Source of the DNA: a virus
Reading direction: 5' to 3' (one strand)
Length of the DNA stretch: 20,201 bases
IMG/VR virus record: IMGVR_UViG_3300020183_005982
Coordinates: 1 to 20,201 of that record
Shown here: one piece after another, positions 5,752-19,985 of the stretch
Layout: every line of letters starts with the position of its first letter
Numbering within the stretch: position 1 is the first letter of the stretch
Position numbers and translations under genes: made by a program
The notes under the pieces: model-generated
The model's database searches: none
Seen by the model: the letters and a program-made list of their open reading frames with translations, nothing else
Told to the model about the DNA's origin: nothing

Positions 5752-5957
5752 TGCCAATAAATTTCCCGAATTCTCCATCAATTGGAGACACTCACTCATC
5801 TGGAGCAAAAACATGGACATGGGATGGGGAAAAGTGGTTGCTGAATCCAGAGGATAGGGCTTTGACCGTTGACGATTTGGACGGTGGTATTCTTGAAATA
5901 GACGAGGCCGAAGTGACGAATAATTTGATTTTTAGTTTTGATGGAGGGACGTTATAA
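5751..5957 (+). CDS. Short tail-fibre accessory protein with GDxxxxGxxTWxWDGxxW module
   Basis: A 68-aa protein. Residues 1-32 (FPNSPSIGD, then KTWTWDGEKW) form the short module that often starts phage fibre proteins. The remaining ~35 residues are acidic and have no recognised match. Its length suggests a split-off fibre N-terminus or a small adaptor rather than a full fibre. It overlaps both neighbours by one base (TAATG at each end), so translation is coupled through the three genes; AGGGGG (5736-5741) lies 9 nt before its ATG. Confidence 0.7.
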   Translation: MPINFPNSPSIGDTHSSGAKTWTWDGEKWLLNPEDRALTVDDLDGGILEIDEAEVTNNLIFSFDGGTL

Positions 5958-8900
5958 TGTCGGGTGCAAGAATTCAACTCAAGCGCGCAACCGCTGCTTC
6001 GTGGACGTCCAATAATCCAGTTCTTTATGTTGGTGAAATCGGTTTTGAAACAGACACCAAGAAACTCAAGATTGGTGACGGCACCACTGCTTGGACTTCA
6101 CTTACTTATGCGTCTATACCCATTGCTCTTTCGACGTTAAATGACCTTAGCGATGTAACGATTACAAGCGCCGCGAACGGTGACTTCCTTCGCTGGAACG
6201 GAACTGCTTGGATTAACGACGCCGTCAATCTCTCCGCGGACACCGTCGGCTCGTACGTGGAGTCGCTCGTCGCTGGCACCGGTGTAACACTTACAAACAA
6301 TTCTGGCGAAGCCGCAACACCAACGATTTCAATTGGTCAGGCAGTGGGAACTGGCTCGAACGTCACGTTCGCCGGTGTAACCGCACCACTTACCGGCAAC
6401 GTAACTGGTAACGCAGACACGGCAACGACACTTGCTACTTCACGAACCATCGAACTGACGGGCGACGTCACTGGTTCGGCTTCTTTTAATGGTTCAGCAA
6501 ACGCATCAATTGCCGCAACCATCCAGCCAAACTCTGTCGCGCTGGGTACTGACACGGTCGGAAACTATGTTGAATCGTTGGTCGCTGGAACTGGCGTAAC
6601 ACTCACCAACAACTCTGGTGAAGGTGCAACGCCGACTATCGCCATTGGTCAATCTGTCGGTACTACCGATAGCCCGACCTTCGCAAAAGTGACGCTTTCG
6701 GGCACCCCAAGCGCGTCTACCGACGCCACTACAAAAAGCTATGTAGACAATATTGCAGCAGGTATAAATTTTCATGATGCTGTTAACCTTGCAACCGCTG
6801 CAGCTCTTCCCAATTCGCCAACTTATAACAACGGCACAAGCGGTGAGGGTGCGACGCTTACCGCAACAACAAACGCAAGATTGCAAGTTGACGGAACAAA
6901 CGCTTCAAATGGAAATAGAATACTTGTAAAAGACCAAGCCACTCCGCAGAATAACGGTGTTTATGTTGTAACTGTACAAGGTTCTGTAAGTACTACATAC
7001 CAACTTACTCGTGCAACTGATTTTGACTCAGTTAATAATTACATTGAACCAGGAGACGCATTTTTTGTACTTGATGGCGCCATAAATGCGGGAAATGGAT
7101 TCATTGTTAATTCAATTGGAACAGCGGAAAATCAAAGTGGAACAGGGACAATTGGAAGACACATTCTTGGAACAGACGAAGTAAATTTTACGCAATTTAC
7201 TGGAACTGCCACCATCACAGCAGGAAATGGATTGTCCAAATCGGGAAATATTTTAAGTATTAATACTGCGACTGTTGCGACACTTTCTGATGCGCAGACG
7301 TTAACAAACAAAACACTTACATCGCCAACAATAAATAATCCAACAATTACGGGTGTTTCTCCAGTTGTGACTCTTGATGGAGACCTTTCTGGTTCGCTTA
7401 CATTGACAAACCTTGGAAGCGGAACACTTACAGCGACCATTCAACCCAACTCGGTGGCACTAGGTACCGATACAACTGGCGACTATGTTGCGGGTCTTGT
7501 TGCTGGTACTGGCGTAACACTTAGTAACAACTCCGGAGAAACAGCAACACCAACTATCGCTATCGGTCAAGCAGTGGGCACTGATTCCACCGTGACCTTT
7601 GCGGGCGTGACCGCACCGTTGACTGGAAACGTCACGGGCAACGCTGATACGGCGACGACACTTGCTACATCACGCACAATTGAATTGACTGGCGATGTCA
7701 CTGGTTCGGCATCATTCAATGGTTCAGCGAACGCCTCAATCACTGCGACGATTCAACCAAATAGTGTTGCTCTCGGAACTGATACAACTGGTAACTATGT
7801 TTCCGATGTAAGCGCTGGAACTGGCGTAACTGTCACGCACACCCCTGGTGAAGGTTCTAGCCCAACAATCGCGATTGGTCAGGCAGTCGGTACTGGCTCT
7901 AGCGTCACTTTCGCGAGCGTCACCGCGCCGTTGACTGGCAACGTCACTGGCAATGCAGACACCGCAACGACCCTTGCCACTTCAAGAACGATTGAACTGA
8001 CTGGCGACGTCACTGGTTCTGCCTCGTTCGATGGCTCCGCCAATGCGTCAATCACCGCAACGATTGCGGCAAATAGCGTTGCTCTTGGTACTGACACAAC
8101 AGGCAATTACGTCTCTGATGTAACTGGCGGAACTGGTGTAACCGTCACTCACACACCTGGCGAAGGTTCTAGCCCGACGATTGCAATCGGTCAGGCAGTG
8201 GGTACTGGTTCTACCGTAACTTTTGCGGGTGTTACCGCACCATTGACCGGCAACGTCACTGGCAATGCAGACACGGCAACAACGCTCGCCACCTCGCGAA
8301 CAATTGAGTTGACGGGCGACGTAACTGGCTCGGCTTCGTTCAATGGGAGTGCAAATGCATCAATTGCCGCGACCATTCAGCCCAACTCGGTGGCGCTGGG
8401 CACCGACACGACTGGTGACTACGTAGCGAGCCTCGTTGCTGGTACGGGTGTAACGCTCACTGACAACTCTGGAGAAACGGCAACGCCAACCATCGCAATC
8501 GGTCAATCTGTCGCCACGAATGCCAACCCGACGTTCGCTGGCGCGACGCTCGATGCCGTCCAGGTCGGAATCACTGCCGCTGGGGAAATAGACACCACGT
8601 CGGGCAACCTGACGATTGACTCGGCTGGCGGCACGGTGACCGTCGATGACGTCTTGACCGTCAATGGCAACATCAACACGAGCAACCAAATACGAATCAC
8701 TGGTACAACCGCAACGTCAATTCCAAACGTGAATGGGCAACAAGAAGCATTCTTGACCGTCAGGGCATCAGAAGCCTCCTTCGCCGACGGCAACGGACCA
8801 AGTCTTCTCCTTGTGCGTAATCATATGAATTCTGGATTGACGGTAAGTCAATACGGCAATTTCTCGCTGACTGGCGGGGGTCGAATCTCTGGCTTCACGG

Positions 8901-10288
8901 GCGATGGCGGTGGCGGCACCGTTGAAATTTATGGCACGAATGGCGCAACCCAAAGAGGACTCATGGTTACCGCCAACGAGTATGCCGCCTCTGGCAACAA
9001 GATACAAACCTGGCAGTCCCATGACTACACGATAAATTCGTTCGTAAAGCCAGACGGTTCGTTCAGCATCAGGAACGTCCAGGTCGGTCTCACCGCCGCT
9101 GGCGAGATTGACACATCTTCAGGCAACCTCACGATTGACTCGGCTGGCGGAACCGTCACCGTCGACGACAACCTGACGGTCACGGGCAACCTGACCGTCT
9201 CGGGGACCACGACCACCGTCAATACAGAGACGATTGAGTTGGCGGACAACATCATCGTTTTCAACAGCAATGCCTCTGGCGCCCCATCGGAGAACGCGGG
9301 AATCGAAATCGAGCGCGGTTCCTCCACAAATGTTCTTCTTCGCTGGAACGAGACCAGCGACAAGTGGGAAATAACCACGGACGGAACAACCTACGACAAC
9401 ATAGCAACCGAGACGTACGCCGCATCGCTGACGCCAGCAACGCTAAACGATATTGGTGATGTCACAATTACCAGCGCTGCCAACGGCGAGTTCCTGAAGT
9501 GGAACGGCTCCGCGTGGGTTAATGCCTCGATTCCGACAATCAACACCCTTGATGATGTCGGCGATGTCACCATCACATCTGCGGCTTCTGGCGATTTCCT
9601 CAAGTGGAACGGCACCGCGTGGGTAAACGACCCCATCAACCTTGCAACCGACACGGTTGGAAATTACATGGCAGATGTTTCGGCAGGAACGGGCATCTCA
9701 GTAACCCACACCGCAGGCGAGGGTTCAACAGCCACCATCGCCGTCGGCGCAACAGTCGTCCAAACGACCGATACTGGCACGGTAACTTCTGCAATGATTG
9801 CAGATGGCACGATTGTCAATGCCGATATCAACGCTTCTGCGGCAATTGATAAAACGAAGATTTCAGGAACCGCAGTAACCGTTGCGGATACCGGCACAGT
9901 AACCAGCACAATGATTGCTGACGGCACGATTGTCAATGCAGACATAAATGCTTCGGCTGCGATTGAGTTGGGCAAATTGGCAGATGTGTCAACCAATGCG
10001 CAGACAGACAGTTACACACTCGTGTTGGCTGATAAAAACAAAATCGTAGAGATGAACAAGGCTTCTGCAAATAACTTGACAGTTCCGCTAAACAGTTCAG
10101 TTGCATTTGCTGTTGGTTCACAAATCAACATTCTTCAAACTGGTGCTGGCCAGACAACAGTTGTCGCAACCAGCGGCGTAACAATTAATGCAACTCCAGG
10201 TTTGAAACTTAGAGCTCAATGGTCATATGCTACGCTCATTAAGCGAGCAGAAAATACTTGGGTTCTCGTTGGAGATGTGTCAGCGTAA
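5957..10288 (+). CDS. Large repeat-rich tail-fibre protein (Mtd_N-like start)
   Basis: A 1443-aa protein, probably the main long tail fibre. Residues 1-52 (RIQLKRATAASW, VLYVGEIGFETDTKKLKIGDGT) match the Mtd_N-type N-terminal domain. The shaft contains four copies of a 104-aa unit starting VTAPLTGNVTGNADTATTL (residues 141, 551, 655 and 759). Residues ~255-495 carry an inserted KSYVD...ILVKDQ...NGVYV...TQFTG module like that of the 433-aa fibre. Near 868 and 1041 there is a repeated V-Q-V-G-x-T-A-A-G-E-I-D block; from 1272, two 39-aa units start DTGTVTS. Residues ~1347-1443 form a common phage fibre C-terminal domain (SYTLVLADKNKIVEMN, INILQTGAGQTTVVA, GLKLRAQWS, TWVLVGD). GGAGG lies 9 nt before the ATG, which overlaps the previous stop (TAATG). 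Confidence 0.9.
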   Translation: MSGARIQLKRATAASWTSNNPVLYVGEIGFETDTKKLKIGDGTTAWTSLTYASIPIALSTLNDLSDVTITSAANGDFLRWNGTAWINDAVNLSADTVGSYVESLVAGTGVTLTNNSGEAATPTISIGQAVGTGSNVTFAGVTAPLTGNVTGNADTATTLATSRTIELTGDVTGSASFNGSANASIAATIQPNSVALGTDTVGNYVESLVAGTGVTLTNNSGEGATPTIAIGQSVGTTDSPTFAKVTLSGTPSASTDATTKSYVDNIAAGINFHDAVNLATAAALPNSPTYNNGTSGEGATLTATTNARLQVDGTNASNGNRILVKDQATPQNNGVYVVTVQGSVSTTYQLTRATDFDSVNNYIEPGDAFFVLDGAINAGNGFIVNSIGTAENQSGTGTIGRHILGTDEVNFTQFTGTATITAGNGLSKSGNILSINTATVATLSDAQTLTNKTLTSPTINNPTITGVSPVVTLDGDLSGSLTLTNLGSGTLTATIQPNSVALGTDTTGDYVAGLVAGTGVTLSNNSGETATPTIAIGQAVGTDSTVTFAGVTAPLTGNVTGNADTATTLATSRTIELTGDVTGSASFNGSANASITATIQPNSVALGTDTTGNYVSDVSAGTGVTVTHTPGEGSSPTIAIGQAVGTGSSVTFASVTAPLTGNVTGNADTATTLATSRTIELTGDVTGSASFDGSANASITATIAANSVALGTDTTGNYVSDVTGGTGVTVTHTPGEGSSPTIAIGQAVGTGSTVTFAGVTAPLTGNVTGNADTATTLATSRTIELTGDVTGSASFNGSANASIAATIQPNSVALGTDTTGDYVASLVAGTGVTLTDNSGETATPTIAIGQSVATNANPTFAGATLDAVQVGITAAGEIDTTSGNLTIDSAGGTVTVDDVLTVNGNINTSNQIRITGTTATSIPNVNGQQEAFLTVRASEASFADGNGPSLLLVRNHMNSGLTVSQYGNFSLTGGGRISGFTGDGGGGTVEIYGTNGATQRGLMVTANEYAASGNKIQTWQSHDYTINSFVKPDGSFSIRNVQVGLTAAGEIDTSSGNLTIDSAGGTVTVDDNLTVTGNLTVSGTTTTVNTETIELADNIIVFNSNASGAPSENAGIEIERGSSTNVLLRWNETSDKWEITTDGTTYDNIATETYAASLTPATLNDIGDVTITSAANGEFLKWNGSAWVNASIPTINTLDDVGDVTITSAASGDFLKWNGTAWVNDPINLATDTVGNYMADVSAGTGISVTHTAGEGSTATIAVGATVVQTTDTGTVTSAMIADGTIVNADINASAAIDKTKISGTAVTVADTGTVTSTMIADGTIVNADINASAAIELGKLADVSTNAQTDSYTLVLADKNKIVEMNKASANNLTVPLNSSVAFAVGSQINILQTGAGQTTVVATSGVTINATPGLKLRAQWSYATLIKRAENTWVLVGDVSA
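6377..6688 (+). repeat. 104-aa / 312-bp fibre repeat, isolated copy
   Basis: One copy of the VTAPLTGNVTG... unit (residues 141-244). It is separated from the three tandem copies by the AT-rich module and part of a further unit. Third-base differences show it is not a recent exact duplication. Confidence 0.8.
7607..8542 (+). repeat. Three tandem 104-aa / 312-bp fibre repeats
   Basis: Copies start at 7607, 7919 and 8231, exactly 312 bp apart (residues 551, 655 and 759). Each runs from VTAPLTGNVTG through ELTGDVTGSASF, NSVALGTDTTG and TIAIGQ. The amino acid sequence is far better kept than the codons, as expected for an old expansion under selection on the protein shaft. Confidence 0.85.
8558..9175 (+). 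repeat. Paired 33-aa fibre block, copies 519 bp apart
   Basis: V-Q-V-G-x-T-A-A-G-E-I-D followed by SGNLTIDSAGGTVTVDD occurs at 8558-8656 and again at 9077-9175. The segment between them (~8660-9076) has a unique sequence with RISGFTGDGGGGTVEIYGT and may be a globular domain on the shaft. Confidence 0.75.
9770..9993 (+). repeat. Two 39-aa fibre units (DTGTVTS...)
   Basis: DTGTVTS[AT]MIADGTIVNADI followed by NASAAI starts at 9770 and at 9887, 117 bp apart, just ahead of the C-terminal domain. This is the usual phage-fibre 'ADGTIVNADI' unit. Confidence 0.75.
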
Positions 10289-10291
10289 TTT

Positions 10292-10915
10292 ATGGCCGGT
10301 AGAACCAATCCGAAAGATACTGGTGGCAAAAAGCCAACAACGCCAACCAACGTTTCTGGCACCGCCGTAGCCCAAACCAATAACACAGCAGGAAATAATG
10401 CTCAGCAAGTCAGTGTTGCTTTTACTGCATCAACATACATTGGCAAAGGAACAGTCACCTATACGGCAACAAGTTCTCCAAGCGGGCTTACAGGAACCGG
10501 CAGTAGTTCTCCAATAACGGTTTCTGGATTGACTGCTGGAACAGCTTATACATTTACTGTCAAAGCCACTACAAACTATGGCGTTGCATCGGATGATTCA
10601 AGCGCATCGAGTTCCGTAACCCCACCATACTTTCCTCCATTTTTCCCACCGTTCTTTCCTCCATACTTCCCGCCGTTCTTCCCACCGTTCTTTCCGCCGT
10701 ACTTTCCACCATTCTTTCCGCCCTTTTTCCCGCCGTACTTCCCACCATTTTTCCCGCCCTTTTTCCCGCCGTACTTCCCACCATTTTTCCCGCCGTTCTT
10801 TCCCCCATACTTCCCACCGTTCTTCCCGCCGTTCTTTCCCCCGTTTTTCCCTCCATTCTTCCCGCCGTTCTTCCCCCCATACTTCCCACCGTTCTTCCCA
10901 CCAGGATTTAAGTGA
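10292..10915 (+). CDS. Fibronectin-III-like protein with eightfold PYFPPFFPPFFP tail
   Basis: A 207-aa protein. Residues ~14-110 form a fibronectin type III-like domain (VSVAFTAS, VTYTATSSPSG, ITVSGLTAGTAYTFTVKA), a fold common on phage virion surfaces. Residues 112-207 are 24 tetrapeptides P-[YF]-F-P, organised as eight 12-residue units P-Y-F-P-P-F-F-P-P-F-F-P; the seventh has lost its Tyr and the last ends PGFK. No signal peptide is seen. The repeat has no Lys, Arg or acid except the final Lys, so it is very hydrophobic yet rigid, perhaps a polyproline-II rod or adhesive tip. It starts 3 nt after the 1443-aa fibre with no clear Shine-Dalgarno, so it may be translated by coupling. Prolyl-hydroxylase-like genes follow two genes downstream. 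Confidence 0.85.
   Translation: MAGRTNPKDTGGKKPTTPTNVSGTAVAQTNNTAGNNAQQVSVAFTASTYIGKGTVTYTATSSPSGLTGTGSSSPITVSGLTAGTAYTFTVKATTNYGVASDDSSASSSVTPPYFPPFFPPFFPPYFPPFFPPFFPPYFPPFFPPFFPPYFPPFFPPFFPPYFPPFFPPFFPPYFPPFFPPFFPPFFPPFFPPFFPPYFPPFFPPGFK
10625..10912 (+). repeat. Eight 36-bp units encoding P-Y-F-P-P-F-F-P-P-F-F-P
   Basis: The array has a 12-bp basic period and a 36-bp super-period set by a Tyr codon at units 1, 4, 7, 10, 13, 16 and 22. Unit 19 (10841-10852) has TTT where Tyr is expected, so phase is kept. Pro and Phe codons vary between copies. Confidence 0.9.
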
Positions 10916-10933
10916 TACAAAATGGAGACAACC

Positions 10934-11932
10934 ATGACAGCAACAACCGTAAATGAATTTATTTCTAAAACAAAATTGCAAAATGGAGTTCCAGAAATAG
11001 CAAAACATTGTGTATCGGAATCGATTAAAAACGACACAGAATGGCACGAGCGCATATTGCCAGTTTCTATTTATGACATTAAGTTGTCCTCTGCTGACGG
11101 AAAAGAATCAGATATTTTGAGTAAACAAAAAGGCAAAGTGACACTTGTATTTAATGTTGCTGCTGGGTGCGGGAACATACCGCAACACTCAGTCATTGAA
11201 GAACTTAACCAGATGTATAAACACGAACCAAATTTTAATATCATTGCCATAGTTGTTGACGACTTTGTTTGCCACGGATATCCAGAATTTCAAAATGGAC
11301 TGATGGCCTATGCAGAACAAAATAGTTTAAATCTGACCCCAGGAGAAGTGGCAAAAAAATATGCTGAAGACAATTTTGGAACCACGTACAAGTTTTCCGA
11401 ATTAACAAATGGAAGATTTGATAAACACACTTATGACCCTGGCTACGTTCCGGGGAAAGAAAAAATTCAAGAACAACATGAACTTTGGTGGTATTTGACA
11501 GGGGCATACAAAGCAGACCTTCAGCCAAATGGTGTTCCATACCACAATGAGGTAATACCTTGGTCATACGCAGAAGAAATGGACGAAAGCGGTCAATTGA
11601 AACAACCAGAAAAAATAAAAGCTTTTGACCCGTTGCGTGGAAATTTTGAAAAGTTTTTGATTGATAAAACAGGAACAAGAATAAAAAGATACGCAAACGG
11701 ATTTCTTCTTGGGGAAAGAAACATCAATGGGGAAACATTCCCATGGATTACAGAGTCTTGGACCAATGATGGACGTCGAAACCATAATCCAAAAATTGAC
11801 CCCTCACCAGAAAACGAAGATGCATACAAGGCATATGGAGATAAATCATGGCCAAATCTTCTTCAAAGAAAAGGCATTGAAGTATCTCTTCATATAATTA
11901 GCAAAGATATAGAGACATTTCTTGGCAAGTAG
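10934..11932 (+). CDS. Glutathione-peroxidase-like thioredoxin-fold protein with altered active site
   Basis: A 332-aa protein from the ATG at 10934, chosen because GGAG (10924-10927) lies 6 nt upstream; an ATG at 10922 would add four residues. Numbering here is from 10922. IYDIKLSSADGKESDIL (50-66), GKVTLVFNVAAGCG (71-84), then a helix, then FGTTYKFSEL (152-161) and NFEKFLIDKTGTRIKRY (241-257) follow the order of glutathione peroxidases. The likely peroxidatic Cys is C83. The usual NQ (of FPCNQF) is replaced by VVDDF and the usual WNF by GNF, so the catalytic Gln and Trp are missing. Extra sequence lies at ~165-237 and ~260-336. A reduced or different redox activity is possible. It lies between the repeat protein and the oxygenase genes, with 2 nt to the next start. 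Confidence 0.7.
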   Translation: MTATTVNEFISKTKLQNGVPEIAKHCVSESIKNDTEWHERILPVSIYDIKLSSADGKESDILSKQKGKVTLVFNVAAGCGNIPQHSVIEELNQMYKHEPNFNIIAIVVDDFVCHGYPEFQNGLMAYAEQNSLNLTPGEVAKKYAEDNFGTTYKFSELTNGRFDKHTYDPGYVPGKEKIQEQHELWWYLTGAYKADLQPNGVPYHNEVIPWSYAEEMDESGQLKQPEKIKAFDPLRGNFEKFLIDKTGTRIKRYANGFLLGERNINGETFPWITESWTNDGRRNHNPKIDPSPENEDAYKAYGDKSWPNLLQRKGIEVSLHIISKDIETFLGK

Positions 11933-11934
11933 AT

Positions 11935-12522
11935 ATGAACGCCGGAGCGGCAGACCCAAATAACATTGTCATCGTTCGAAATTTTATTTCAGCTGACGAC
12001 TTGAGCAGACTATATAAATACTGCTATTCCATCAACGAGTGGGAAACATGGTCAGCTGGTGGTGAAGACAAAATATCAACAGCAAAATACATGAAAGCCA
12101 AAAACCCAGAGCTGTATGACACGATGAAGGGTTACGTTGACGAAATACAAAAACAAATTGAGTTTAAATTTGGTAGACCATTAGAACCAGCTGAAGCAGG
12201 AGTACGTAGATGGGATGTCGGAGAAGAACAGGGACTGCACGCAGATGGGGAAAACCGCGATGGCAGTCCAAATGGCACATATATTGTGGACTATGGTTCG
12301 GTCATGTACTTGAACCAGAACTTTATTGGTGGAGAGATATATTTTCCTCAATACGAGCTTGAAATTACCCCAGAAGCTGGCATGTTAATCTATTTTCCAT
12401 CCAGTAGATACTACCTACATGGTGTTAGAAAGATACTCCAAGGAATCAGATACACATCGGCGCATTTTTGGGTTCCCGAAAAACACAGAAAGTTAATTAA
12501 CAATGTTATTGGGAAAACCTAA
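11935..12522 (+). CDS. 2OG-Fe(II) oxygenase, prolyl 4-hydroxylase-like (A)
   Basis: A 195-aa protein of the P4H/2OG-Fe(II) oxygenase superfamily, which uses 2-oxoglutarate, O2 and Fe(II) to hydroxylate a substrate. Iron ligands are H102, D104 (LHADGE) and H162 (YLHGVRK); the 2OG-binding residue is R172 (GIRYTS), ten residues after the second His. The core GGEIYFPQYELEITPEAGMLI (132-152) and FPSSRYYLHGV match P4H-type proteins. No signal or membrane segment. It is the first of four P4H-like enzymes here; it lies 2 nt after the GPx-like gene and overlaps the sulfotransferase gene by 20 nt. The substrate is not shown by the sequence. Confidence 0.9.
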   Translation: MNAGAADPNNIVIVRNFISADDLSRLYKYCYSINEWETWSAGGEDKISTAKYMKAKNPELYDTMKGYVDEIQKQIEFKFGRPLEPAEAGVRRWDVGEEQGLHADGENRDGSPNGTYIVDYGSVMYLNQNFIGGEIYFPQYELEITPEAGMLIYFPSSRYYLHGVRKILQGIRYTSAHFWVPEKHRKLINNVIGKT

Positions 12523-13279
12523 GCTCTACCATCTTCATATTCCAAGGACGGGGGGGACAAACATACTGTATGCCATGCAGAAGTCTTTTGGAATCGATGC
12601 CAACATGGCTTGGCCGGGGATATTTGAATTCATCTACAACCATGAGAAATTAAAAAATAATGGATTTATCTCTGGTCATTTTGCTTTAAATCCCATACTC
12701 CAAAATCACGAGATAAAAACATTTTCTGTAGTTCGCGAACCAATTGACCACTTTATAAGTGTTGCGGCATATCGTGCGGCCAGCAACAATAAAGAATTTA
12801 ACAACAAGACACTGGATGCATTTCTTGAAGAATATCAATTATTTTGCTTCTCTTCTGACGTTTTTGGATTATCTGGAAACCTTCAAACAAAGCACTTAAC
12901 ATGCAGATTGATAAATTTTTGCGAACTTTTCACGGATAAAGATGTTGCTGAACTTAAGACAACCACTGGAACTGTAGGCAATATTGAAGAATCAATAATT
13001 TTCGAAGAAGGTTCATTTCCAGCTGATGAGGCTGAGTTGTTAAAAAAAATAGAAAATATCAAATTATTCAAGTTTTATGAGAGAGATAAAATAAATAGCT
13101 ATTTGCATCAAGTTCTAAATAATGTGTTTGGAGTGCAATTCTGTGGTATTAGCAAAAATCAGGTCAATTCTTCGGTCAGAAATATGATGATGCCCAGCCC
13201 ACAGCAAATTAGAGAAATTGAAAATAGGTGCAAAATGGATTTGATATTGTATGAGCATGTCTGCTCCGTCAATAAATAA
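12503..13279 (+). CDS. PAPS-dependent sulfotransferase-like protein
   Basis: A 258-aa protein with sulfotransferase signatures. HIPRTGGTN (12-20) is the 5'-phosphosulfate-binding loop of the form HxPKxGGT(S/N), with Arg in place of the usual Lys. TFSVVREPIDHFIS (73-86) is the 3'-phosphate-binding element. Together they mark a carbohydrate- or protein-directed sulfotransferase (Sulfotransfer_2-like) that moves sulfate from PAPS to a hydroxyl group, either glycan or Tyr/Ser/Thr. No membrane segment precedes the domain, unlike many eukaryotic members, so it would act in the cytoplasm. It overlaps the gene before it by 20 nt and the one after it by 23-29 nt, so it belongs to the same operon as the oxygenases. 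Weak RBS. The acceptor is unknown. Confidence 0.8.
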   Translation: MLLGKPKLYHLHIPRTGGTNILYAMQKSFGIDANMAWPGIFEFIYNHEKLKNNGFISGHFALNPILQNHEIKTFSVVREPIDHFISVAAYRAASNNKEFNNKTLDAFLEEYQLFCFSSDVFGLSGNLQTKHLTCRLINFCELFTDKDVAELKTTTGTVGNIEESIIFEEGSFPADEAELLKKIENIKLFKFYERDKINSYLHQVLNNVFGVQFCGISKNQVNSSVRNMMMPSPQQIREIENRCKMDLILYEHVCSVNK

Positions 13280-13892
13280 CGAATCCCCATGGAATATTAA
13301 ACCTGGGCATTTTGGTAGCGGACCAGAGAATATTCACATTCTAGAAAATTTTATCGACCCAACTGACTTAAAAATAATTCATGACTTTTGCCCCACCATC
13401 AGCGAGTGGAATAACGAGGCCGAAAGCGTGTATGCAGAGGATGGGACATGTCTTTATAACGCCGATTACTGGAATGACAGACAGTGCAGCAGTGACATTT
13501 TGCTGCGACTTAACCCAGCAGTACATGCCCTAGTAGATAAATACATCTACAAAATGAAAGAAACTATTGAGTCCATATTTGGGGTTGAGGTGTCGGTCCG
13601 TCCGCCGGTAATCATGAAGTGGCGTCCTGGCATAGAACAACAACCCCACGCAGACAAACAGCTAAATGACGGGCGCCCAAATGCATTTGTCGACTACGAC
13701 ATAAATACGCTTTTTTACTACAACGATGAATTTACCGGTGGAGAGCTCTACTATCCACAGCACAATATAACCGTGCGCCCCAAGCCTGGTCTTGCAGTTA
13801 TCCACCCAGGTGATGTGAATTACCTGCATGGGGTCAAAATGATTACGTCTGGAGAAAGATATACGACCCCATCGTTCTATACGGTTGTATAG
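13251..13892 (+). CDS. 2OG-Fe(II) oxygenase, prolyl 4-hydroxylase-like (B)
   Basis: A 213-aa protein from the ATG at 13251, with an alternative ATG at 13257; both overlap the sulfotransferase gene. Iron ligands are H133, D135 (PHADKQ) and H193 (YLHGVKM); R203 (GERYTT) is in the 2OG position. GGELYYPQHNITVRPKPGLA (163-182) matches the GGEIYFPQYELEITPEAGM block of enzyme A, so they are clear but divergent paralogues. The ~60-residue N-terminus is longer than in A. There is no signal peptide. Only 3 nt separate it from the next gene. The substrate is unknown. Confidence 0.9.
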   Translation: MSMSAPSINNESPWNIKPGHFGSGPENIHILENFIDPTDLKIIHDFCPTISEWNNEAESVYAEDGTCLYNADYWNDRQCSSDILLRLNPAVHALVDKYIYKMKETIESIFGVEVSVRPPVIMKWRPGIEQQPHADKQLNDGRPNAFVDYDINTLFYYNDEFTGGELYYPQHNITVRPKPGLAVIHPGDVNYLHGVKMITSGERYTTPSFYTVV

Positions 13893-13895
13893 CAA

Positions 13896-14432
13896 ATGTC
13901 TTCCGATAAAAGCAGAAAACTAGACGGTATTTATCAAGTTTTAAACTTCATCAACCACGATTCTCTCGAGCTTATTAATCAATTGTCGGTTGATGTGAAA
14001 GAATCGCTTAGCCCACAGAAAATGAAAGAAGAAGGCTATTCAGAACTATATAACACTATTCGTGTTGAAACAATGGCCGCAGGTAAATTGATTGAAGACT
14101 CCTATAACGTAAACCTCAACTGGTCCGTATTTCATCCGGGATTTTTTGTCAGGCGGACAGACAACCACGAACCAGAAATACACGCCGACAATGAAACCCT
14201 TGACGGGAAACCAAAACCAAATTTTGAAAATTTTGACGTATCCGGAGTAATATATTTTGGCTCAGAGTTCGAAGGGGGCGAGATTGAGTTTGTCAACAAA
14301 AATATAAAAATAAAACCAAAAGCTGGCAGTTTGATATTCTTTCCGGGAGATGCCCGATATGCCCACTGTGTGCATAGGGTTGTTTCTGGTGTTAGGCTTT
14401 CCTCCGCAATGTGGTTTGCAATTTTGGATTAA
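13896..14432 (+). CDS. 2OG-Fe(II) oxygenase, short P4H-like (C)
   Basis: A 178-aa protein, shorter than its neighbours. Iron ligands H96 and D98 (IHADNE) and H157 (RYAHCVHR), with R167 (GVRLSS) in the 2OG position. The core is present (GGEIEFVNKNIKIKPKAGSLI, 128-148), and FFPGDARYAHCV is typical of P4H-like enzymes. The region before the HxD is short and shows no other domain. The ATG starts 3 nt after the stop of gene B, without a strong RBS, suggesting coupled translation. Substrate unknown. Confidence 0.88.
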   Translation: MSSDKSRKLDGIYQVLNFINHDSLELINQLSVDVKESLSPQKMKEEGYSELYNTIRVETMAAGKLIEDSYNVNLNWSVFHPGFFVRRTDNHEPEIHADNETLDGKPKPNFENFDVSGVIYFGSEFEGGEIEFVNKNIKIKPKAGSLIFFPGDARYAHCVHRVVSGVRLSSAMWFAILD

Positions 14433-14452: not shown

Positions 14453-15190
14453 ATGACAGAGATGCTTTGCCCAGACATTCAAGTTTTTCATGTCGACGAC
14501 CCACGTTTTGGAATTATTCTCTACAGAAACGCCCTCAGCGAAAAAGCAAAAAATGTAGTCGAAAGACTTGAAAAAACAATTGGTGAAAGCACAACCGCTC
14601 CGTACATGTGGATGGAAGCCCTTGTCGGTGACCAAACAAAAATGCCAGAATATAGAGATTGCCACGATTGCAAAATTGGGCAAGCACACGCAGATAATGC
14701 TCAGGATGAATTTTTAGAAATAAAAAACATTTATCATGATGTTTCCGAATCCTTAAAATTTGCGCTAGCCGATTACGAGGCAAGATACAACATAAAAATG
14801 GATTTTATGGAAGCAATTAATTTCGTTAGATACAAGGAAGGCGAACACTTCAGCGTTCATACGGACCATGGTTTTTCATATACCTGCACAGTTTCCTCAT
14901 GTCTTTATTTGAACAGTGGCTACGAAGGCGGAGAATTGTATTTTCCAAATCTCAACATCACAATTAAACCAGAGTTTGGCGATAACGTGATTTTCCCATC
15001 GACATACATATATTCCCATGGCGCCAAACCAGTCACAAGCGGCACAAAATACGTTGCCGTGACAATGTTTGACTACAACGACAGAAACCACAAGCATGGA
15101 TATGGCGAAAATATTGATGGAACACCGGCCACGCCCGGCGCAGGAATACCTAAATACACCCCAGGGCAACTGGCGGTTCCAAAAGGATGA
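14453..15190 (+). CDS. 2OG-Fe(II) oxygenase, P4H-like with C-terminal tail (D)
   Basis: A 245-aa protein from the ATG at 14453, chosen because AAGGAG (14441-14446) sits 6 nt upstream; a GTG at 14411 would overlap the previous gene and lacks an RBS. Iron ligands H136 and D138 (VHTDHG) and H189 (YSHGAKP); K199 (GTKYVA) takes the 2OG position held by Arg in A to C, as in collagen-type P4Hs. GGELYFPNLNITIKPEFGD (159-177) matches the shared core. A further possible motif, AHADNAQDEF (78-87), lies before the catalytic block; it resembles an HxD but has no partner His and is probably not a second centre. The ~35-residue Pro/Gly tail after the fold is unusual. The stop overlaps the next start (ATGA). 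Confidence 0.88.
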   Translation: MTEMLCPDIQVFHVDDPRFGIILYRNALSEKAKNVVERLEKTIGESTTAPYMWMEALVGDQTKMPEYRDCHDCKIGQAHADNAQDEFLEIKNIYHDVSESLKFALADYEARYNIKMDFMEAINFVRYKEGEHFSVHTDHGFSYTCTVSSCLYLNSGYEGGELYFPNLNITIKPEFGDNVIFPSTYIYSHGAKPVTSGTKYVAVTMFDYNDRNHKHGYGENIDGTPATPGAGIPKYTPGQLAVPKG

Positions 15191-15891
15191 CAAAAATAGG
15201 GCTGTGCCCATCTGGACAAAATCCGCCAGCAATCAAGCAGGCTGGCATAAGGCGCAACTGGATGGATGACACGCACAAAAAACACGCATATCAATGTCTC
15301 CCCGTAACTGTTTCCAATGTGAGTGGCTGGGAGGTGCAACTAAAAGAAGAAGTTGTGGTCATTTGGGATGGTGGGAACACTGTGCCGCGAGTCATCAAGG
15401 GAGAACTTTCGTCAGACGGATTCCGTCAGGTCCAACAATCAATTATTGGAATGGTATCTTTTACACTTGGTTGGATAATAAAAACAGAACAGCCGTACTC
15501 GACGGTCATTTCTGGGAGCCCGAATTATTTCCCGGATGGAGCAGTTGGTTTGACTGCCACCATTCCTACGTGGTGGTGGCCGGACGAAGTTCAAATGAAC
15601 TGGAAAATTACAAAAGTTGGCGAAGAGGTTGTTTTCCCTGCCGGCTCTCCAATTTGTTTTTTCACCATACAAGACGATGGATTGCTGGGTTCTGTGGAAT
15701 TTGAATCATTTAACATTTGGGAAAATAAAGAATTTATTGACAGAAGGGTCAAGTACAGTCAAGAAAAAGCAGAAAAATCCAGAGAGTGGATTTGGTCCAA
15801 GGGAATCAAAACCGGACTCGACTCTGATGGACAAAAAATAGGTCCGGAGTTCATGGGTATGCCCAAACTCGCAGAGCCGCCACTGCTATAA
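15187..15891 (+). CDS. DUF6065-like protein
   Basis: A 234-aa protein I recognise as DUF6065-like from memory of the family: an N-terminal WMDDT, then AYQCLPVTVSNVSGWEV (34-50), EVVVIWDGG (55-63), a mid block with GMVSFTLGWIIKTE, SGSPNYFPDGAVGLTATIPT (109-128), PDEVQMNWKITK (132-143) and VVFPAGSPICFFT (148-160). This order fits that family, which occurs in phages and bacteria and has no established function. It is a compact soluble beta-rich protein, with no signal peptide. The start overlaps the preceding oxygenase stop (ATGA), so it is coupled to that cassette. Its own stop codon lies inside the next promoter. Confidence 0.7.
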   Translation: MTKIGLCPSGQNPPAIKQAGIRRNWMDDTHKKHAYQCLPVTVSNVSGWEVQLKEEVVVIWDGGNTVPRVIKGELSSDGFRQVQQSIIGMVSFTLGWIIKTEQPYSTVISGSPNYFPDGAVGLTATIPTWWWPDEVQMNWKITKVGEEVVFPAGSPICFFTIQDDGLLGSVEFESFNIWENKEFIDRRVKYSQEKAEKSREWIWSKGIKTGLDSDGQKIGPEFMGMPKLAEPPLL

Positions 15892-17951: not shown

Positions 17952-18695
17952 ATGAAAAATAAAACTCCAGAGTTTTGGGATGAGATAATCTCAACAATAC
18001 CCGTATGTATTGAACTTGAAAAAAATTGGATAAAAATAAGGGATGAATACCTTGTACAGGATTCTCACAACAACAACAATACGACTGATAGCATTACCAG
18101 GTTTTCGGTTCCCAAATTCGCCATTTCTAACCGCGGACAAATAGATAAAGAGTCGAGTCGCGAAGCCACAACACCCGACAGCGCCAGGGAGGGAAATGAA
18201 AAATTGCATGACGGCGTATGGGAGGGGTTTGCAGCTGGAACAATGCCAAAAGAAGACATTAATGTTCAATGGGCAAATACTAATTACATTCGTAAAGTGC
18301 TTAAATGGAAAACAAAAAGAACCATTCCAGAACATCTCGAAGATTCTCGAAAAAAATTCCCAACATTCAATAAAATAGTTAATGAGTTTGCAGACGAGGG
18401 GCAATGTTCTGGAGCTTTCTACAGCTTGGTTAAGCCAGGGACAACAATCAATCCACACTTTGGAGCAGATGAACATATGAGATGTCATTTGTCATTAATC
18501 AATGACCCAAAATGTATTTTGACAGTAGGGGATAAAAGCAGAACTTGGGAAGAAGGAAAAATACTAGCATTTAAAGACGGTCGCCCATATATGCATTCAG
18601 TCAGACACAACGGAGACAAAGATAGATTAGTTTTGTTTTTCGACTTTGATATGACGTATCTCAGGGCTCGCTTTCCAGATATCGAAGGGTTGTAA
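17952..18695 (+). CDS. Aspartyl/asparaginyl beta-hydroxylase-like 2OG oxygenase (E)
   Basis: A 247-aa protein. The C-terminal half (~152-232) matches aspartyl/asparaginyl beta-hydroxylases: YSLVKPGTTINPHFGADEHM (157-176) with iron ligand H169, the R177-x-H179 pair that contacts 2OG in this family, TVGDKSRTWEEGKILAF, the second iron ligand H215 (YMHS) and R225 (DRLVLFF). AspH-type enzymes use two His and no Asp ligand, which fits. The N-terminal ~100 residues hold an Asn run (HNNNNTTD) and are not recognised. No membrane anchor, unlike human AspH. It is distant in sequence from A to D, so it joined the island separately. Its leaderless-type promoter suggests independent expression. Confidence 0.85.
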   Translation: MKNKTPEFWDEIISTIPVCIELEKNWIKIRDEYLVQDSHNNNNTTDSITRFSVPKFAISNRGQIDKESSREATTPDSAREGNEKLHDGVWEGFAAGTMPKEDINVQWANTNYIRKVLKWKTKRTIPEHLEDSRKKFPTFNKIVNEFADEGQCSGAFYSLVKPGTTINPHFGADEHMRCHLSLINDPKCILTVGDKSRTWEEGKILAFKDGRPYMHSVRHNGDKDRLVLFFDFDMTYLRARFPDIEGL

Positions 18696-18703
18696 AAGAA
18701 TGT

Positions 18704-19375
18704 ATGCAGATATTGGACGATGCAATCAGCAGGAATCTCTATCTTGATGTGCTTGGGGACTGCTTATTTTTCCCTGAATCGATGGGACCAGGCGAGAAAA
18801 TAGCAACAGAGCTAAATTCCTACCACGATGAAAAAGCTAGTTGTTTTGCGCCGTATATGTTTTGGGATGGGTGGTGGTTATCCGAAGCAAACACTCTAAA
18901 AAAAAGAGTAATCAAGGAGCTATGGGAAAATAGACTCCCAGCGCGACAAGATGAGATATTGGGATTTGAATATTGGACCAGGACGTATCTTCCCGGCCAA
19001 TATTTGGATGTCCACGTCGACGAAGATACGTTTTTGTACGCGGATTCCAAGACGTTTTCTGGACCACATGCTGGTGGAATTTGGTACGGTTGCGATAATA
19101 AAGATGGTGGATTTCTAGAGATACATCAGTCCGTATTGGTTGACGGACAAAAAATGATACTTGAGCGAGACAGCATTGACCGCAACATTTCTCCAATTGA
19201 GCAAAGAGAAAGAATTGCGTACAGGGGCAATAGGTTTATTAATTTCGATGCAGGCCATGTTCTTCATTCAACGACTCCAGCAAAGTCCGGAAAACGCGAA
19301 GTAATGGTTATCAATGTGTGGCACAAAAACAACCCACCGACCGCACTTGGGTTAGATAAGTTTTTCTATGAGTGA
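18704..19375 (+). CDS. 2OG-Fe(II) oxygenase (F), divergent
   Basis: A 223-aa protein of the 2OG-Fe(II) oxygenase superfamily. LDVHVDEDT (101-109) gives iron ligands H104 and D106; GHVLHSTTPAKSGKREVMVINVW (184-206) gives H188 and R198. A long insert (~110-165) lies between the HxD and the second His, with GGIWYGC and GGFLEIHQS. It differs from A to D, which have a tight GGE-x-Y-F-P core; it is nearer the broad PHD/P4H-like group. No RBS is strong; the gene starts 8 nt after the AspH-like stop. The end overlaps the next start by 8 nt. Confidence 0.82.
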   Translation: MQILDDAISRNLYLDVLGDCLFFPESMGPGEKIATELNSYHDEKASCFAPYMFWDGWWLSEANTLKKRVIKELWENRLPARQDEILGFEYWTRTYLPGQYLDVHVDEDTFLYADSKTFSGPHAGGIWYGCDNKDGGFLEIHQSVLVDGQKMILERDSIDRNISPIEQRERIAYRGNRFINFDAGHVLHSTTPAKSGKREVMVINVWHKNNPPTALGLDKFFYE

Positions 19376-19985
19376 AGAGCTTGCATACACACCCCTCATA
19401 ACACAGGGTATATTTACAACAATTTTAAATGATATTGACAACAAAAAGCTTGTACATGAAATACAAGAATATGGATATGCGGTGCCGTCTGGTGATGAGC
19501 GGTATAACTGGAGCGGATTTATACAATACGAGGACACCGTATGCCCAAGAAGCAAAGAGTTTGAAAAACTCGAAAAAGCAGTGATTGCCGCAGTGGACAG
19601 GGTTGGTGGACGCGCCCATCAAATTGACGAATTATGGGCAATACTTCTTGATAAAGGTAAAAGCGTTATGGCGCACTGCCATCACAAAAAACACCACATA
19701 TATCCGGAAGAGTATTTTTCAGTATCGTATTATCCACAGGTTCCGGATGGCTCTGCCGCACTGGTATTTTCTGCAAACTGGTGTGGATATATGAATAGTT
19801 CCGTGATGATTGAGCCAAAAGAAGGCATGCTTACAATCTTTAATTCATACCTAAATCACATGACCACGAGGCACAATTCAAGCATCCCAAGAATTGTGAT
19901 AAGCATGAATCTAAGCCCTGTCAAGCCAAATATTGCGCCAAATGCAGACTGGTCAATCTACCAAGAAAGGCCCATAGTTAATTAG
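19368..19985 (+). CDS. Putative 2OG-Fe(II) oxygenase-like protein (G), unusual HxH
   Basis: A 205-aa protein. ELWAILLDKGKSVMAHCHH (88-106), EYFSVSYYPQVPDGSA (115-130), IEPKEGMLTIFNSYLNHMTT (148-167) and IPRIVISMNLSP (173-184) follow the order of the 2OG-FeII_Oxy_5 group seen in marine phages. The candidate iron ligands are H103 and/or H105 and H164, with R175 as 2OG contact. The usual HxD is HCH here, so the acidic ligand is missing or supplied elsewhere; activity is therefore less certain than for A to F. The start overlaps the previous stop by 8 nt. It is the last gene before a promoter-bearing gap. Confidence 0.65.
   Translation: MSEELAYTPLITQGIFTTILNDIDNKKLVHEIQEYGYAVPSGDERYNWSGFIQYEDTVCPRSKEFEKLEKAVIAAVDRVGGRAHQIDELWAILLDKGKSVMAHCHHKKHHIYPEEYFSVSYYPQVPDGSAALVFSANWCGYMNSSVMIEPKEGMLTIFNSYLNHMTTRHNSSIPRIVISMNLSPVKPNIAPNADWSIYQERPIVN

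Follow-up and report, generated by a model that had tools for sequence, protein, structure and literature searches.

A proline-aromatic tetrad array linked to 2OG-Fe(II) oxygenase genes in uncultured phages: a candidate hydroxylated fibre stalk

A small protein of an uncultured virus carries, behind a fibronectin-III (FN3)-like domain, a long array built of proline and aromatic residues, and a series of 2OG-Fe(II) oxygenase genes lies downstream of it. This raises the question of what such an array is for and whether the neighbouring enzymes act on it. The window analysed here is the whole stretch of 20,201 nt from IMG/VR record IMGVR_UViG_3300020183_005982, a 20.2 kb virus record that represents a fragment. 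The original prediction had seen a strict eightfold 12-residue repeat at 10625-10912 and had offered an adhesive tip, a membrane-active segment and a modified scaffold as possible roles. The following features of the window are concerned.

5957-10288, + strand: upstream tail-fibre gene with an Mtd_N domain, 1443 aa (Pfam Mtd_N, E 2e-14), also adjoining upstream in relatives
10292-10915, + strand: repeat protein gene (ORF), FN3 domain plus proline/aromatic array, 207 aa, with relatives in at least 193 viral-contig stretches
10346-10621, + strand: FN3-like domain, approximately residues 19-110 (Pfam fn3, AF2, Foldseek)
10622-10897, + strand: array of 23 PP[Y/F]F tetrads (DNA pattern; pN/pS 0.058)
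10898-10912, + strand: PPGFK at the C-terminus, with the FK ending seen in 106 of 214 array ORFs
10922-11932, + strand: glutathione-peroxidase/redoxin-like protein (Pfam GSHPx, E 2e-6), in 22 of 38 relatives
11935-12522, + strand: 2OG-Fe(II) oxygenase (PF13640, E 4e-8)
12503-13279, + strand: sulfotransferase-like protein, a weak assignment (Sulfotransfer_2, E 0.019, under cut-off; phrog_3347, E 0.002)
13251-13892, + strand: core 2OG-Fe(II) oxygenase A (ox13251), prolyl-hydroxylase-like, in 37 of 38 relatives (HxD...H...R invariant; AF2 pLDDT 88)
13896-14432, + strand: 2OG-Fe(II) oxygenase (PF13640, E 3e-11)
14453-15190, + strand: core 2OG-Fe(II) oxygenase B (ox14453), P4H-like, in 38 of 38 relatives (HxD...H...K invariant; nearest PDB entry B. 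anthracis P4H)
15187-15891, + strand: DUF6065 protein (PF19541, E 4e-40), kept in 35 of 38 relatives
17952-18695, + strand: aspartyl/asparaginyl beta-hydroxylase-like protein (PF05118, E 1e-24)
18704-19375, + strand: conserved downstream gene, probable 2OG-type oxygenase (HVDEDT motif), in 22 of 38 relatives, with no NCBIfam family
19368-19985, + strand: TIGR02466-like protein, putative 2OG-Fe(II) oxygenase family (TIGR02466, E 6e-11, under cut-off)

Architecture of the repeat protein and selection on its array

According to profile searches and structural modelling, the N-terminal part of the repeat protein is an FN3 domain, in agreement with the original prediction. The window copy matched Pfam fn3 over residues 35-99 with an E-value of 2e-4 and 22 bits, under the cut-off of 25, and relatives matched it above the cut-off (e.g., L019, E 3e-18). 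The AF2 model of the domain had pLDDT values mostly of 81-96, and its best Foldseek match was 1k85, an FN3 domain from chitinase A1 of Bacillus circulans (target TM 0.76). Peptidase_S74, known from relatives, was not found in the window repeat protein itself.

The last 97 residues of the protein are P, F and Y only, except for the final GFK, as had been predicted. The array is a tandem repeat as well, although it begins at 10622 rather than 10625 and its strict unit is the four-residue tetrad PP[aromatic]F, not a 12-mer in eight strict copies. With its tetrads in the order YFFYFFYFFYFFYFFYFFFFFYF, it consists of six clean YFF triplets, confined to the first 18 of the 23 tetrads, and an irregular end; the 12-residue period, two copies of which make the 24-mer (PPYFPPFFPPFF)2, is a higher-order pattern. 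A three-tetrad DNA pattern gave 21 matches in the window and none in 100 shuffles. Gly-X-Y triplets, looked for as a test of collagen, were absent from the window array, which has no Gly ahead of the terminal GFK. AF2 assigned the array no secondary structure, with pLDDT values of 54-62, a low-confidence and uninformative result. A rigid, uncharged rod is plausible, and 92 residues at 3.1 angstrom per residue would span approximately 28 nm if they adopted polyproline-II geometry.

Codons of the array vary while residues do not, which the original prediction had taken as a sign of selection on the protein. Pairwise comparison of the 23 window tetrads gave 547 synonymous and 112 non-synonymous differences (pN/pS 0.058); the sole residue change is Y/F at position 3, even though all four codons for Pro and both for Phe occur. 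Across 51 distinct arrays of relatives, pN/pS was 0.059. Selection on the protein is thus borne out, and the array is real at the protein level. One could still suppose that the antisense frame at 10576-11055, with its GGKNGGK repeats, is the true gene and the sense repeat a by-product, given that this antisense ORF is open. However, its openness is forced by the CCN/TTY codons of the sense array, pN/pS of the sense frame is 0.06, and the sense FN3 domain and array are kept in at least 193 relatives, so we consider this reading scarcely credible.

Variation of the array and of the domains around it

A protein homology scan of IMG/VR detected at least 193 relatives, 80 of which were kept, and a homology-free DNA-pattern scan detected at least 120 stretches. 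Among the homology-found relatives, FN3 domains number from one to four or more, and arrays range from 3 to 29 tetrads. In the near-identical relatives L001-L004, the array comprises 23, 26, 20 and 29 tetrads, respectively. Because copy number in these relatives moves in steps of three tetrads (36 nt), array length apparently changes by tandem duplication. Repeat loss in close relatives, which the original prediction had named as evidence against it, was not seen in the assessable ones. Across 868 tetrads of 68 distinct arrays, PP was constant, position 3 was F, Y, W or H, and position 4 was F in 868 of 868. In the DNA-pattern set, P or PP precedes the aromatic pair and 2546 of 2547 units end in F. 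Many arrays of this set sit in other scaffolds, with FN3-like, PASTA-like or unassigned heads. The PASTA-like heads gave weak matches to Pfam PASTA (1 of 11 at E 0.0026; L287 at E 9e-4, under the cut-off) and no match in a PDB profile search. The array stays constant while the head switches from FN3 to PASTA-like.

The C-terminal ends are varied too. Among 214 array ORFs, 106 end in FK, 32 have a Cys-rich end, and 5 and 4 have Hint-like and Peptidase_S74 ends, respectively, both classes being assigned by motif. S74 chaperones are intramolecular chaperones of tail spikes that are freed by self-cleavage. In two relatives, L223 (337-1077; E 1e-11) and L317 (1085-1771, - strand; E 4e-11), Peptidase_S74 starts immediately past ...PPAFK. 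Given this position and the self-cleavage of S74, the FK end of other members may equal the mature C-terminus, so the widespread PPxFK end may be what self-cleavage leaves behind. Since a further domain (Cys-rich, Hint-like or S74) follows the array in many relatives, the array there is a stalk rather than a tip, which makes the predicted adhesive tip less likely. In L030, L042, L064, L065, L066, L069, L072 and L369, a small Cys-rich cap stands in place of FK, and such a cap is perhaps a receptor-binding knob. Hint/intein-like domains lie past the array in L283, L312, L326, L343, L349, L370 and L375, with weak Pfam matches (Hint_2, E 0.003; Intein_splicing, E 9e-5).

Spacing of Y at lag 3 was enriched overall (z 4.7), with a z of 5.1 in the FN3 group versus 0.8 outside it, and synonymous identity among tetrads also peaked at lag 3. 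Because the Y signal is found in the FN3 group only and synonymous identity peaks at the same lag, 36-nt duplication accounts for at least part of the 12-residue period. The period had been considered as proof of a polyproline-II register (12 being a common multiple of 3 and 4); it was rejected as such, in view of its limitation to the FN3 group and of the 36-nt duplication.

Searches with tblastn and blastn against annotated phages found no repeat protein; because low-complexity filtering and codon variation mask the array, they do not prove its absence from cultured phages. A scan of 84,980 genomes gave one weak match, L083, which comes from a Verrucomicrobiales MAG; it has the whole fibre-array-oxygenase module and is probably a phage contig. 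Dishui Lake phage DSL-LC01, considered as a known relative, was dismissed, having neither PF13640 nor the array pattern. WhiB, an actinobacterial marker (PMC10202952), was detected in 13 of 20 related records, among them all seven longer than 120 kb. The hosts of the lineages of these long WhiB-bearing relatives are probably Actinobacteria, a statement limited to those lineages. No description of the repeat was found in the literature searched. FN3 domains, fibres, S74 and the P4H fold are known parts; what appears to be new is this class of repeat and its association with batteries of oxygenases.

Linkage of the array to 2OG-Fe(II) oxygenases

In the window, the Mtd_N fibre gene is followed by the repeat protein gene, the GSHPx-like gene, a 2OG oxygenase and the sulfotransferase-like gene. 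Three additional oxygenases of the 2OG type come next, and then DUF6065 and other genes that are hydroxylase-like. Relatives repeatedly show the succession of fibre, array protein, ox13251, ox14453 and DUF6065. Among 38 non-redundant loci found through the array, each with at least 6 kb downstream, ox14453 was present in 38, ox13251 in 37 and DUF6065 in 35, and 4-10 genes of the 2OG family (median 7) lay within 10.5 kb of the array. PF13640 occurred in 49 of the 50 records found through the array protein; the remaining one, L018, lies at a contig end. The linkage also held when approached from the enzymes: wherever 2.5 kb or more of sequence was available upstream of an ox13251 relative, the array was present, and the same held for ox14453 relatives given 3 kb or more. 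L224, the one apparent exception among the latter and considered as an array-free relative with collagen-like fibres, was rejected as such, its array lying further along, at the contig end. The ox14453 sequences fall into 62 clusters at 95% identity and 11 at 70%, so the linkage does not reflect one clone.

Contigs picked by the array DNA pattern alone carried PF13640 in 43 of 50 cases, and at least one of the other seven ends at the array. As a control, we used contigs picked by the WhiB gene, which is unrelated to the module. PF13640 was present in 2 of these 38 and the array in 1, the array-positive contig being among those two. Comparison of the array-picked with the array-negative WhiB-picked contigs (43/50 vs 1/37) gave a Fisher p of approximately 3e-16, and restricting the comparison to contigs of 14 kb or more (42/48 vs 1/25) gave approximately 1e-12; as the records are fragments and some are related, these p-values overstate independence, which leaves the effect size unaffected. 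Of 71 pattern-picked loci flanked by 4 kb or more, 55 contain a 2OG oxygenase, and in these 55 a median of 296 bases separates the array from the nearest one.

Both core oxygenases retain the HxD...H iron triad and the 2OG-binding Arg/Lys ten residues on. H133, D135, H193 and R203 were invariant in 12 aligned sequences of ox13251, and H136, D138, H189 and K199 in 11 of ox14453, the role of each residue being deduced from its spacing. In sequence searches, the closest solved structures were B. anthracis P4H (E 3e-4 for ox13251 and 3e-7 for ox14453), P3H1 and lysyl hydroxylases, joined by PBCV-1 P4H in the case of ox14453. The ox13251 model (pLDDT 88) had PBCV-1 prolyl hydroxylase 5c5t as its top Foldseek match (E 6e-10), with Chlamydomonas P4H 2jig among the others, and VIA-align placed P3H1, PBCV-1, PHD2 and Pseudomonas P4H at Z 15-17 and PiuC at 15.8. 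NCBIfam weakly placed the core oxygenases nearest FlmC and the PKHD-type YbiX/PiuC. Their nearest solved relatives are mostly prolyl hydroxylases; alignment and model establish the fold and cofactor site, and specificity for proline is putative.

Further genes and repeats of these loci were observed. DUF6065 is linked to the array as tightly as the oxygenases are, had no match in cultured phages and could be part of the same modification system. A flavin-dependent (tryptophan) halogenase-like gene lies among the fibre genes of an array-positive phage (L235:9343-10857, - strand); seen in one contig only, it was rejected as a general part of the module. The Mtd_N fibre gene contains a 312-nt tandem repeat (7550-8346; 2.6 copies, 80% matches), and the region 1759-2850 on the - strand of the window is glycosyltransferase-like by eye, with a relative at the same place in L064.

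Possible role of the array and comparison with known systems

The repeat gene follows the Mtd_N fibre gene in a conserved order and relatives carry S74 fusions, a fibre setting that fits the virion location expected in the original prediction. Since arrays adjoin tail-fibre genes, the array is very probably a fibre stalk. This role is well supported; its hydroxylation we infer from linkage and fold. The best explanation, about which we are evenly divided, is that the array forms a rigid fibre stalk of polyproline-II-like character and that the oxygenases encoded next to it hydroxylate its prolines. The repeat protein would be a tail-fibre accessory protein of the phage, its FN3 head would anchor or bind, and the (PP[Y/F]F)n array would form an extended polyproline-II-like stalk that drifts in length via tandem duplication. 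Dedicated downstream 2OG-Fe(II) oxygenases, at least ox13251 and ox14453, would hydroxylate stalk prolines before assembly. Hydroxylation would add polarity and favour polyproline-II, turning a very hydrophobic rod into a soluble, stiff one, and the hydroxylated prolines might be sites for further modification. Among the roles first offered, the modified scaffold is favoured because of the linked prolyl-hydroxylase-like genes.

We put the chance that the adjacent oxygenases hydroxylate the array at about even, because the array stays constant across differing heads and tails, the enzymes share the fold of prolyl hydroxylases, and no conserved array residue other than proline is one that such enzymes are known to modify. 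B. anthracis P4H acts on collagen-like (PPG)n peptides, hydroxylating them (PMC8968730). Counter-evidence comes from the sequence kinship with YbiX/PiuC and FlmC, which are not shown to be prolyl hydroxylases (PiuC is also close in structure); as for a polyproline-II screw, the 12-residue period with its threefold fit was not seen outside the FN3 group. Furthermore, the members of the oxygenase battery cannot all target the array. Neither partner strictly requires the other, since 7 of 50 array contigs are without PF13640 and cyanophages have the enzymes without a detected array (PMC9602691).

In another reading, which we find possible but doubtful, the stalk is unmodified and the oxygenases travel with fibre genes in a host-recognition module and act on other targets, such as glycans, other fibre residues or host proteins. 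The island also has sulfotransferase-like, redoxin-like and DUF6065 genes, and cyanophages carry many 2OG oxygenases (PMC9602691), one of them giving no two-tetrad pattern match. Nevertheless, the linkage follows the array itself across different heads at a median gap of 296 bases, oxygenases are almost absent from array-negative WhiB-picked contigs, and the core enzymes are prolyl-hydroxylase-like. An adhesive or membrane-active tip that touches the host envelope via its aromatics is improbable. Extreme hydrophobicity, the C-terminal place of the array in many members (FK end in 106 of 214 ORFs) and likeness to PPFFPP in PR-39, an antimicrobial peptide (PMC3995882), speak for it, but the array is internal in many relatives with further domains after it, is without cationic residues, unlike PR-39, and follows a residue pattern far stricter than membrane segments need; a membrane-active array finds no support. 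The fibre neighbourhood and S74 fusions also make it very improbable that the repeat protein acts in the infected cell instead of the virion, as a scaffold, a competitive substrate or a cause of EF-P-dependent translation stalling, even though dense PP motifs slow translation.

The hydroxylated stalk may extend beyond this locus. With slightly less than even confidence, we suggest that the fibres of many uncultured phages contain a genetically encoded aromatic rod rich in hydroxyproline. This rod would be a (P1-2[F/Y/H/W]F)n stalk, and prolyl hydroxylases dedicated to it and supplied by the phage would modify it in the cytoplasm of the host. If so, a major purpose of the 2OG-Fe(II) oxygenase batteries of phages would be explained, and phage fibres would gain a post-translationally modified structural polymer. 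As a strict proline repeat genetically tied to the enzymes, the array is the first concrete candidate target, and a defined substrate candidate, for these oxygenases.

Among known systems, cyanophage S-SCSM1, with 24 reported 2OG oxygenases, is likewise a single phage with numerous PF13640 genes, some of which lie close to tail genes (PMC9602691). The two-tetrad DNA pattern was not found in it, so such batteries also serve without arrays, and cyanophage oxygenases are only distantly related to ox13251 and ox14453. S-SCSM1 has an annotated tryptophan halogenase near baseplate genes, comparable to the halogenase-like gene of L235. The proline-rich antimicrobial peptides PR-39 and Bac5 are cationic host-defence peptides, whereas the array has no charge and is part of a fibre protein. 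Collagen-like proteins of phages and bacteria share with it a fibre stalk of short proline-containing repeats, but the array has no Gly-X-Y and no collagen triple helix is possible.

The Chlorella virus PBCV-1 likewise encodes an enzyme of P4H fold, vCPH, the top Foldseek structure for ox13251. This prolyl 4-hydroxylase reportedly acts, according to a 1999 paper, on proline-rich repeats encoded by the same virus. The present system differs in belonging to a tailed phage, in having a battery of candidate enzymes that are linked directly to a single repeat protein, and in the PP[Y/F]F unit of its repeat. The hydroxyproline-rich glycoproteins of plants and algae (extensins) combine long proline repeats, a polyproline-II rod and prolyl-hydroxylase-fold enzymes. 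The array resembles them in its long proline repeats, expected polyproline-II rod and enzymes of that fold; it differs in being aromatic, in having no Ser for glycosylation and no homology, and in that its hydroxylation is putative. If this hydroxylation is real, the module would represent, in a virus of bacteria, the equivalent of the maturation of extensin or collagen.
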